Shown here: piece after piece, positions 14,148 through 52,829 of the stretch
Layout of the letters: each line of letters opens with the position of its first letter
Position numbering within the stretch: position 1 is the stretch's first letter
NCBI GenBank assembly: GCA_030445775.1
Contig: JASUTC010000005.1
Location: 1 to 53,099 of the forward strand
DNA from: Thermotogaceae bacterium
GTDB taxonomy: Bacteria > Thermotogota > Thermotogae > MWEM01
Length of the DNA stretch: 53,099 nucleotides
Direction of reading: 5' to 3'
The notes under the pieces: model-generated
Seen by the model: the letters and a program-made list of their open reading frames with translations, nothing else
The model's database searches: none
Told to the model about the DNA's origin: nothing
Made by a program: the position numbers and the translations under genes

Positions 14148-16262
14148 ATGAAAAATATGGATGTAATTGTTTCATTAATGGTTGTTGGCATTATCTTTTT
14201 AATGATTTTGCCCGTTCCCACATTTTTATTAGATTCTTTTCAAATGATTAACATCTCCTTTTCCCTTGTCATTATTTTGGCGACAATGTATGTGAGATCA
14301 GCTCTTGAGTTGTCTTCTTTTCCCAGTATCTTGTTAGTGGTTACATTGTTGCGTTTGTCTTTGAATATAACTTCCACAAGACTTATCTTGTTGAATGGGA
14401 AAAATTTTGACGGGAAAGTCATTAAAACCTTTGGTAACTTTGTTGTCAGCGGTAATTACATTGTTGGTTTGATCATCTTCTTAATTCTTGTTATTATTCA
14501 ATTCATCGTCATTACAAAAGGTGCTGAGAGAATTTCCGAGGTTGGGGCACGTTTTACTCTCGATGCAATGCCTGGCAAACAAATGAGTGTGGATGCCGAT
14601 TACAATGCGGGATTGATTACCGAAGATGAAGCGCGAAAAAAAAGGGAAGACATCAGAAGAGAGGCCGATTTCTACGGTGCAATGGATGGTGCAAGTAAAT
14701 TTGTTCGTGGAGATGCTATTGCCGGCATCATCATTGTTTTTATCAATATTATAGGTGGGTTAATCATTGGGGTTGTCCAACTGGGTATGGAGATTGGGGA
14801 GGCAGCCCAAGTATTTACTCTGTTGACTGTTGGAGACGGTTTGGCTTCTCAGATTCCCGCATTACTCATATCCACATCAAGTGGTATTCTCGTTTCAAGA
14901 TCTGCCTCAGAATCAAACTTGGGTAATGATATGCTTCGTGAATTATCCAGTGAAACGAAAGTGTTGTATTTAACCGGTGGTGTTTTGGTTTTTTTGACAC
15001 TGTTTACTCCCTTACCGACTTTTCTTGGTCTTCTTATAGGTGGAGGCCTTATTCTTGTTGCCTATTTTTCCTCGCAAAAGGAAAAGGAAACAGCCGTCGC
15101 TGCTGCAGGTGGTGGAGGTGGTGTTGGATTTGCCGGTTTGGAAGGTCCAAAGCCAAAAGGCCCATCAGCCGGTGGTGAAGCAGAAAGAGCAGAAGCACCT
15201 AGTGCGCCATCTTTAACCTCTGCTGAAGAAGTTTCCGAGATCATTCAATCGGATACGCTGGATGTAGAGTTTGGTTACGGGATTCTTCCTTTAGCTGATC
15301 CCGGGCAAGGTGGGGACTTGTTGGACCGAATCACCATGGTCCGAAAGCAAACGGCTTATGAATATGGTCTCATTTTAAGTCCTATCAGAGTTAGAGACAG
15401 TGTTTTGTTAAAAGCAAACGAATATATGATAAAATTAAAAGGGACCGAATTAACTAAATATGAGCTATGGCCGGATAGATTGTTAGCTATTAATCCGGGT
15501 ACTGCGCAGGGAGTTTTACCTGGTATAGCCAGTAAAGAGCCTGCTTTTGGATTAGAAGCTTATTGGATTGATGAAAGCCAGAGGGATCAAGCAACCAGTC
15601 AGGGTTATACCGTCGTAGATCCCCCCAGCGTATTTGCAACACATTTTTCAGAAATTGTGAAGCAGCACGCTTATGAATTGCTGGGTAGAAAAGAAATGGA
15701 TCTGTTGATTAAAGGTTTAAAAGAGAATTTTTCTGAGCTTGTAGATGAAGTGATACCTGATCTTTTGAAGATTTACGAAGTTCAAAGGATCCTTCAAAAC
15801 CTTTTAAGAGAAAGGGTTTCAATAAGAAACCTTCCGCTGATATTTGAAACGATTTCGGAGTATGCGGAGAAAACAAAAGATATTGATTATCTGACTGAAT
15901 TCGTGAGAAGAGCGCTTAAAAGGCAGATTTGTATTGCAAATCGTTCAGATGACGGACAAATTCATGCGGTTGGGATTGACCCTAATTTAGAAAGACAATT
16001 GTCTTCTCAAATAAGAGAAACTGAAGATGAGAGATACCTCGCACTCAACCCCGATTTGATGCAGCAGTTGATAGACAGATTTTCAAAAGGCGTGGAAAAA
16101 ATCATGCAAAAAGGGTACATGCCTGTTATCGTTTGTTCGGGGAACATAAGAATTTACTTGTATAAAGCTCTCGAGAAATCACTCCAGAGTATAGCATTTA
16201 TTTCCTATGAGGAACTTGTTGATGACATTCCCTTTAGTGTAGAAACGGTGATTAAAATATGA
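14148..16262 (+). CDS. flhA: Flagellar export gate ATP/PMF-coupled protein FlhA
   Basis: At 704 residues with about eight N-terminal helices and a large cytoplasmic C-domain this is full-length FlhA. The cytoplasmic FHIPEP loop region is recognisable (DAMPGKQMSVDADYNAGLI, residues about 144-162), and the nonamer-forming C-domain carries PLADPGQGGDLLDRI. A long Gly/Ala/Pro-rich, low-complexity linker (about residues 315-355, with a GGGGG run) joins the two halves; this is longer and more repetitive than I expect from the family. It couples proton flow to export. The stop overlaps the flhF start by four bases. Confidence 0.96.
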   Translation: MKNMDVIVSLMVVGIIFLMILPVPTFLLDSFQMINISFSLVIILATMYVRSALELSSFPSILLVVTLLRLSLNITSTRLILLNGKNFDGKVIKTFGNFVVSGNYIVGLIIFLILVIIQFIVITKGAERISEVGARFTLDAMPGKQMSVDADYNAGLITEDEARKKREDIRREADFYGAMDGASKFVRGDAIAGIIIVFINIIGGLIIGVVQLGMEIGEAAQVFTLLTVGDGLASQIPALLISTSSGILVSRSASESNLGNDMLRELSSETKVLYLTGGVLVFLTLFTPLPTFLGLLIGGGLILVAYFSSQKEKETAVAAAGGGGGVGFAGLEGPKPKGPSAGGEAERAEAPSAPSLTSAEEVSEIIQSDTLDVEFGYGILPLADPGQGGDLLDRITMVRKQTAYEYGLILSPIRVRDSVLLKANEYMIKLKGTELTKYELWPDRLLAINPGTAQGVLPGIASKEPAFGLEAYWIDESQRDQATSQGYTVVDPPSVFATHFSEIVKQHAYELLGRKEMDLLIKGLKENFSELVDEVIPDLLKIYEVQRILQNLLRERVSIRNLPLIFETISEYAEKTKDIDYLTEFVRRALKRQICIANRSDDGQIHAVGIDPNLERQLSSQIRETEDERYLALNPDLMQQLIDRFSKGVEKIMQKGYMPVIVCSGNIRIYLYKALEKSLQSIAFISYEELVDDIPFSVETVIKI

Positions 16263-51905: not shown

Positions 51906-52589
51906 TTATAAATTGAAACGAATTTCCACGGCTTTACCCAGAAAAAGGCATTCTCTTTCCCATTCTTTTGGCTTAAAAAAGATGGGATCATAAGCACTGT
52001 TCTCGCTTAAAAGCCAGATCCCTTCTTTTGTAAGGTACAGTCTTTTTAACAATGCTTGATCGTTGTTTACGATGACAAGGGCGATATCCAGGTTCCTGAA
52101 TTGTTCGATGCGTATCCTTTTAATTAAAGCAATGGAGCCATTTCTAATCAATGGTTCCATACTGTCTCCGTGTACACTTACTGCAAAATCCGCATTGGCT
52201 CCGTATATATAATCCTCCGCTTTTTCCTGTGCCAGGATATTTGCCCCGGCACCCGTTAGACCAAGCAACGGAATTTGTTCCTGTAAATACTCAAAGACAT
52301 TTCCGGCGTCTATCCCTTTTTGTTTCAGATAATTACGAATTTGAAAGATCTCTTCATCTTCTCGGTCTGTTGTCTTTGACGGATCCAATTCTTCACTGAC
52401 TCTTAAAAGATATTCAAGAGAAATTTCGAATAAATTGGATAACTTGATCAGAACTTTTTTTGAGGGCTTTCGAATGCCCCTTTCATAAGCGGAAATTGTT
52501 GACATGTTCAATCCCAACATCTTTGCCAACTCATTCTGATTGATCCCTCTTTTTTCTCTTAATTCTTTTAAAAGGCTTTGTATAGACAC
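51906..52589 (-). CDS. XRE HTH - S24 peptidase repressor (LexA/CI type)
   Basis: A 227-residue repressor: N-terminal HTH_3 (VSIQSLLKELREKRGINQNE ... STISAYERG), a linker, and an S24 autoproteolysis domain with the Ser143 of HGDSMEP and Lys182 of ALLKRLY. A likely self-cleavage Ala114-Gly115 lies in GLTGAGANILAQ. Such proteins repress until RecA* or another signal promotes cleavage. The start is GTG 52589, with AAGGAG about 12 bases ahead; a longer ORF reaches 52652 but has no site. Its promoter overlaps a palindrome (see 52651), so it probably represses itself and the divergent promoter. No phage genes are near, so it is likely a host SOS or stress regulator. Confidence 0.88.
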   Translation of the reverse strand: MSIQSLLKELREKRGINQNELAKMLGLNMSTISAYERGIRKPSKKVLIKLSNLFEISLEYLLRVSEELDPSKTTDREDEEIFQIRNYLKQKGIDAGNVFEYLQEQIPLLGLTGAGANILAQEKAEDYIYGANADFAVSVHGDSMEPLIRNGSIALIKRIRIEQFRNLDIALVIVNNDQALLKRLYLTKEGIWLLSENSAYDPIFFKPKEWERECLFLGKAVEIRFNL

Positions 52590-52628
52590 CTTTATGATTT
52601 CTCCTTTTCTGCCCTTTCGTATGGAATA

Positions 52629-52656
52629 ATTATAGCATAAAAACGAATTCATACAA
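52629..52656 (-). promoter_or_regulatory. Promoter of the XRE-S24 repressor gene
   Basis: Minus strand TTGTAT (52651-52656), 16 bases, TATAAT (52629-52634) with TG extension. The -35 element is one half of the palindrome 52651-52668. Confidence 0.6.
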
Positions 52657-52668
52657 AATGTATTGTAT
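52651..52668. promoter_or_regulatory. Operator candidate for the repressor
   Basis: ATACAAAATGTATTGTAT is a palindrome with arms ATACAA and TTGTAT. Its inner ten bases ACAAAATGTA recur exactly at 52705-52714, over the -35 and spacer of the divergent plus-strand promoter. The pair looks like repressor-binding sites for both promoters. Confidence 0.55.
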
Positions 52669-52701
52669 TAAAGAGTTAAAAATAAAAAAGAATAGAATAA
52701 C

Positions 52702-52730
52702 TTGACAAAATGTACGAATTGGTATATAAT
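52702..52730 (+). promoter_or_regulatory. Perfect consensus sigma-A promoter
   Basis: TTGACA (52702-52707), exactly 17 bases, TATAAT (52725-52730). Both hexamers match consensus fully. A copy of ACAAAATGTA (52705-52714) overlaps the -35, so it is probably repressed by the adjacent S24-type protein. It points toward a terminator 40 bases downstream and then pfp. Confidence 0.85.
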
Positions 52731-52770
52731 TGTTTTGAAAGACAAAAGACAATAACCCCAATAACTTCCC

Positions 52771-52794
52771 AACCCCCTCCCCGGGGGTTTTTTT
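52771..52794 (+). terminator. Intrinsic terminator right after the consensus promoter
   Basis: AACCCCC (52771-52777) pairs with GGGGGTT (52783-52789) around TCCCC, followed by five more Ts. It lies about 34 bases from the predicted start of transcription. Confidence 0.85.
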
Positions 52795-52798
52795 GCGG

Positions 52799-52829
52799 TT
52801 GCCTCAATAATTATAATGTCTGATATAAT
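52799..52829 (+). promoter_or_regulatory. Probable pfp promoter
   Basis: TTGCCT (52799-52804), 19 bases, TATAAT (52824-52829) with TG extension (TGATATAAT). This lies beyond the terminator and would serve pfp whatever happens upstream. Confidence 0.55.

Follow-up and report, generated by a model that had tools for sequence, protein, structure and literature searches.

The window, i.e., the whole stretch of 53,099 nucleotides which was analysed, encodes on its minus strand (51906–52589) a repressor of 227 amino acids with an HTH_3 and a peptidase S24 domain (Pfam matches of 2.9e-18 and 3.3e-19, respectively). The start is likely the GTG at 52589 and not the ATG at 52652, as judged from comparison with orthologs. 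In an alignment to LexA, an Ala-Gly scissile bond (A115-G116) and the Ser/Lys dyad (S144, K183) were found to be retained, and these residues are invariant in three repressor orthologs. The promoter of the gene (52629–52656, minus strand) consists of TTGTAT (52656–52651) and TATAAT (52634–52629), separated by 16 bp, with an extended -10 (TGC); the orthologs possess the same arrangement. A putative operator, O1, which is the palindrome ATACAAAATGTAT (52651–52663), lies over the -35 of this promoter, and a second one, O2, TTGACAAAATGTACG (52702–52716), over the -35 of a promoter on the plus strand. The centres of O1 and O2 are 52 bp apart.

The plus-strand promoter, TTGACA-17-TATAAT at 52702–52730 (-35 at 52702–52707, -10 at 52725–52730), could be read directly, as had been claimed in the original prediction, and the window contains no second perfect -35/-10 pair with a spacing of 16–18 bp (0.05 pairs expected from shuffles). 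It is followed on the same strand by an intrinsic terminator, AACCCCC-TCCCC-GGGGGTT-TTTTT (52771–52794), with a stem of AACCCCC and GGGGGTT and a U-tract. The predicted default transcript extends from about 52737 to 52794 and has 58 nt, within the 55 to 60 bases proposed before. Its 5' half (52737–52770, plus strand; GAAAGACAAAAGACAAUAACCCCAAUAACUUCCC) is unpaired and C-rich in the predicted fold, and the terminator hairpin follows. No open reading frame is present within 52737–52794, where ATG, GTG and TTG are absent, and no match was obtained among 4227 Rfam models.

Comparison at the level of family and order comprised three genomes, namely that of the window (G000) and two of a sister genus (G001 and G002). 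Orthologs of the repressor with 43–44% identity were found in both G001 and G002; in all three genomes the repressor gene adjoins a copy of the RNA gene or is located within about 1 kb of it, while the other neighbours change. The small-RNA promoter was matched without mismatches by one copy in G001 and two copies in G002. In the sister genus the unit consists of TTGACA-nnn-TGTnCGA-TATAAT, a C-rich transcript of 72–88 bases and a terminator; the four copies in the three genomes have TTGACA-nnn-TGTnCGAnT-TATAAT in common, as well as a terminator and a C-rich body, TTGACA-nnn-TGTnCGA being invariant (4/4), and the terminator stems of the other family copies are equivalent to that in the window. 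G002 shares the layout of the window (an operator at the repressor promoter, TTGACAATTTGTCCGATTCAGGGTATAAT, a C-rich transcript, and AACCCCCTTCCGGGGGTTTTTTT), with a further RNA copy away from the repressor (C334:825). In G001 the RNA gene is situated about 100 bp past the repressor gene, in convergent orientation, with promoter and operator as in the window. The RNA body is weakly alike between the genera, since the scores with G000 were reached by 55, 111 and 402 of 2000 shuffles, respectively; orthology within the family rests therefore on promoter, operator, terminator, position and the linkage to the repressor. A presumed second copy in G000 (C50:20421) was rejected as just a terminator beside a ParA/Mrp-type gene, as was a DNA match in G001 (C44), which is an unrelated terminator. 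A scan of the genome collection with the single repressor as query yielded no matches. The end of contig C88 and the start of C334 in G002 share 700 bp with 97% identity, which points to a recent duplication or to the presence of two strains in the bin.

A ten-base repeat, ACAAAATGTA, had been noted over the -35 of the RNA promoter and inside a palindrome on the -35 of the repressor promoter. Both positions were corroborated (52653 and 52705, the only occurrences in the window), but the putative operator unit appears to be an 11-bp palindrome, (K)ACA-nnn-TGT(M), instead of the repeat. With 0.27 occurrences expected and at least two in 4 of 100 shuffles, the repeat by itself says little beyond chance; O1 and O2 are convincing because of their conservation in relatives. 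The comparison of related genomes, which had been suggested as a check, showed KACAnnnTGTM at both the repressor and the RNA promoters in 3/3 genomes, with a palindrome of the same class as O1 at the repressor promoter of G001 and G002. The proposed layout of a repressor-controlled switch is thus found again, since operators, promoter and terminated transcript recur with the repressor ortholog in G000, G001 and G002, which represent two genera. We infer from these positions that the repressor binds O1 and O2, and would be autoregulated and hold the RNA promoter off.

When both strands were counted, YDKACANNNTGTMYG exceeded the reversed pattern in G001 (10 vs 2) and G002 (11 vs 3); no over-representation was present in G000 (4 vs 7). 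Sites on both strands in G001 and G002 occur at the repressor promoter and, at the loci of RNA and solute-binding protein, upstream of the solute-binding-protein gene, which is divergent from the RNA gene and has a Moco riboswitch. A broad operator regulon was rejected, as most of the remaining pattern matches fall inside coding sequences; the only other site on both strands in G000, a perfect palindrome at C88:22844, is the terminator stem before an infC-like gene. The Moco (molybdenum/tungsten cofactor) riboswitch, RF01055, is located directly upstream of the solute-binding-protein gene (L003:2368-2506, L075:1250-1389 and L019:25-164), and a putative S24-type operator lies about 110–150 bp further upstream at these loci. 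In G001 (C12:53556; L027), an operator-like sequence, TTGACAATATGTCCG, precedes a Cas3-like gene by about 290 bp; it could be a further member of the regulon or a chance match.

Homologs of the RNA with the core AATAACCCCCAATAA were found in nine genomes of f7, another family of the same class. A first covariance model, built from the four family copies and run on 103 genomes of the class, gave 104–137 bits for these copies and weak matches in f7 (best E per genome about 1e-3); its most distant matches, in other families, proved to be no more than terminators or promoters of consensus type. A second model with nine sequences as input recovered the nine f7 genomes, which belong to three genera, with E values of 2e-18 to 2e-15; as five of the nine were in its training set, this result describes a distribution and is not independent proof. 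Its weaker matches outside f7 look like terminators. The f7 homologs contain an invariant core of 22 nt, AATAACCCCCAATAAAATCCCC, and the alignment of the f7 RNA with that of the window, TATAATAGTTTTAGAAGACAATAACCCCCAATAAAATCCCC versus TATAATTGTTTTGAAAGACAA(AAGACAA)TAACCCCAATAACTTCCC, suggests that the latter holds a duplication of 7 nt. Similarity of the body between G000 and G050, and between G000 and G034, was above all of 2000 dinucleotide shuffles, and between G000 and G035 it was reached by 16 of 2000. The option of a small regulatory RNA, one of those originally considered, has thus gained weight, since a short C-rich transcript ending in a terminator recurs in the three genomes (two genera) and homologs of the RNA occur in a third lineage.

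All nine f7 copies are preceded by TTTAAG-N5-WTTAAG-N10-TAWAAT, which looks like a promoter activated by a response regulator. The box overlaps the 3' end of an upstream PHP-type gene, the last codon of which varies (L, F, H, Y) although the box stays; therefore, conservation here appears to act on the DNA and not on the protein. Transcriptional control of the RNA is thus probably different between the lineages, and would offer a clear example of regulation being rewired while the RNA stays fixed.

The combination of promoter and intrinsic terminator yielding a short transcript, which is present in the window at 52702–52730 and 52771–52794, was likewise found in 12 related copies. The RNA gene is conserved independently of its neighbours; pfp, flagellin, GNAT, the repressor gene or PHP/DUF368-like genes may adjoin. 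This bears on the possibility that the short transcript represents terminated mRNA of pfp (or, in f7, of the DUF368-like gene), the gene being switched on by release of termination. The unit in the window does point in the same direction as pfp, whose start is about 105 bp further downstream, and the RNA of most or nearly all f7 genomes examined is found immediately before a DUF368-like gene, which makes a cis role possible in that family; yet in G034 the two are kept apart by about 780 bp of repeats (tandem repeats of about 170 bp, L193, reverse strand), downstream genes vary among pfp, DUF368-like and none, and the fold shows no evident alternative antiterminator pairing. The gene next to the RNA in G001, and next to each of the two copies in G002, is convergent, no co-directional gene follows, and pfp is downstream in the window alone, which makes a leader of pfp unlikely, and pfp has its own plausible promoter-like TATAAT downstream of the terminator (52824–52829). 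These contexts, and the TATAAT, speak against readthrough into pfp and against an antiterminated leader, both of which the original prediction had listed, and the leader of pfp was rejected; a cis-acting attenuator, of pfp or of the f7 gene, is considered very improbable. What the locus probably contains is a regulatory RNA not described before, and not a region that controls pfp.

Phage repressors, including those of Marinitoga viruses, are about 30–33% identical to the repressor, and phage switches typically have divergent operators that cover -35 boxes. The locus could therefore perhaps be the remnant of an immunity switch, with a CI-like repressor, a decayed lytic promoter and a short transcript without function. 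However, no phage genes adjoin in the neighbourhoods which were read; the neighbours in the window are a GH3 hexosaminidase and pfp, with no divergent (Cro-type) protein gene between them. Promoter, operator and terminator have been kept in two genera, a duplicated RNA copy occurs away from the repressor, and homologs of the RNA body are found in f7 under a different promoter, so that such a remnant appears improbable.

The best explanation, to which we assign a probability of about 0.7, is a switch of two genes, namely an autoregulated HTH_3 and S24 repressor and a stand-alone gene for a trans-acting C-rich small RNA, which it would repress and which is probably released by damage. In such a switch the repressor would sit on both operators and keep the consensus promoter of the RNA off by covering its -35; DNA damage, or a related trigger, would inactivate the repressor by RecA-stimulated self-cleavage, and its loss should lead to a strong burst of the RNA of about 58 nt and of new repressor, followed by a reset. 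The unpaired C-rich 5' half of the RNA could then pair with G-rich stretches of target mRNAs.

Release by DNA damage is probable in view of the intact catalytic residues of the S24 domain. The repressor itself scored 41.3 bits with TIGR00498 (LexA), below the equivalog cut-off of 110.95. No match over the cut-off was obtained in G000, G001 or G002, the best ones being UmuD-like proteins, and canonical LexA was thus dropped as the controller; 9 of 14 control genomes, with Thermotoga maritima among them, did yield matches over the cut-off. As the three genomes are 86–93% complete, the absence of LexA in all of them is suggestive. It is possible, if rather doubtful, that the RNA is real but responds to something other than DNA damage, with the S24 domain serving for dimerisation or the sensing of another stress, as reported for IrvR (PMC7101444). 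S24 regulators with RecA-independent control exist; confidence in this view overlaps that in the two-gene switch released by damage, because the two differ only in the trigger. The pattern scan revealed no operators at repair genes, in agreement with another trigger; against it, neither the dyad nor the cleavage site has been lost, and the lack of a canonical LexA in the three genomes leaves room for a damage regulator.

Control of a small RNA by a DNA-damage repressor is known from IstR-2 of enterobacteria, which is governed by LexA, but that system has a winged-helix operator, a large SOS regulon and an unrelated RNA. The C-rich small RNAs RsaE/RoxS of Firmicutes pair by unpaired C-rich motifs with G-rich ribosome-binding sites; their regulators differ from the repressor of the window. 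The csRNAs of streptococci, which are controlled by CiaR, have 51–202 nt, their own promoter with a regulator box, a terminator, and several copies per genome, and their unpaired stretches were proposed to pair with start regions of mRNAs (PMC3091779). The RNA described here is similar in its own promoter bearing a regulator site, terminator, several copies and unpaired stretches, and the f7 box is an exact instance of the csRNA search rule (PMC3091779), with no relation of sequence established. The rule (NTTAAG-N5-WTTAAG 10 bp upstream of the -10) is absent at 52690–52730; unlike the csRNAs, the window copy has a strong consensus promoter under a putative repressor operator. Another counterpart is FddR of Francisella, a co-opted phage S24 repressor which is autoregulated and has a tiny regulon, itself and a divergent unit (PMC13148647). 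Phage origin, a palindromic operator and a lineage devoid of canonical SOS control are shared features (PMC13148647), but the divergent partners of FddR are protein genes (an uncharacterised gene and dinB) instead of a small RNA, and the operators differ (GTG-N11-CAC vs KACA-N3-TGTM). A phage-type repressor with an RNA as its main visible target would extend this type of minimal damage response to an RNA output. Few small RNAs have been reported from the deep-branching Thermotogota group, with 12–13 putative ncRNAs in T. maritima (PMC3636130).

The leader of umuD, GGAGGGGAAUGUUAUUGGGGG, was the best single candidate target in G000 (10+5 bp with one bulge, the candidate pairing segments being AAUAACCCC/GGGGUUAUU). 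The leader of the operon begins with GGAGGGGAAUGUUAUUGGGGGAAGUGUUU, a start deduced from an upstream TATAAT. The predicted duplex of -31.3 kcal/mol was matched by 1 of 1000 shuffled leaders and by 0 of 1000 shuffled RNAs; umuD was examined as it was a match of the LexA model, and a scan of the whole genome is expected to yield some partner of about this strength. Among the 12 sites of GTTRTTGGGG outside the RNA gene in G000, umuD ranked second, behind a tandem repeat of GGGGTT only; the seed is not enriched in this genome (13 vs 26 for the control), and the site is not shared by G001 and G002, where umuD follows disA without a comparable leader. The predicted pairing with umuD is thus a lead and not a result. 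The wider proposition must be tentative, namely a new small-RNA family in Thermotogota-class bacteria with an exchanged controller (a self-cleaving, phage-derived repressor versus a CiaR-like response-regulator site); in the lineage of the window, which appears to lack canonical LexA, a minimal DNA-damage switch would have this RNA as its main output, and the RNA would act on the umuDC mRNA for error-prone repair.

At the umuD locus of G000 (C23, about 14426–14960; L169), umuD, a DUF72-like gene and umuC form a cluster, and within the umuD leader lies GGGGAAGTGTTTAAAACACTTCCCC, an almost perfect palindrome that could serve as an operator or as a weak terminator. Another recurrent promoter or operator, TCTGTACTATATGTTATAATACAGA, was noticed at G000:C6:2902 (L017), G002:C29:2292 (L025), G000:C23:119291 (L035) and G001:C26:30675; it precedes a GntR-type regulator in L017 and L025 and is probably the operator of that regulator. 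Finally, TTGACAAAATGTCTTATATGACATATAAT at G001:C10:46283 (L015), which contains a different palindrome, ATGTC-N5-GACAT, is located before a gene for a small HigB/RelE-like toxin.
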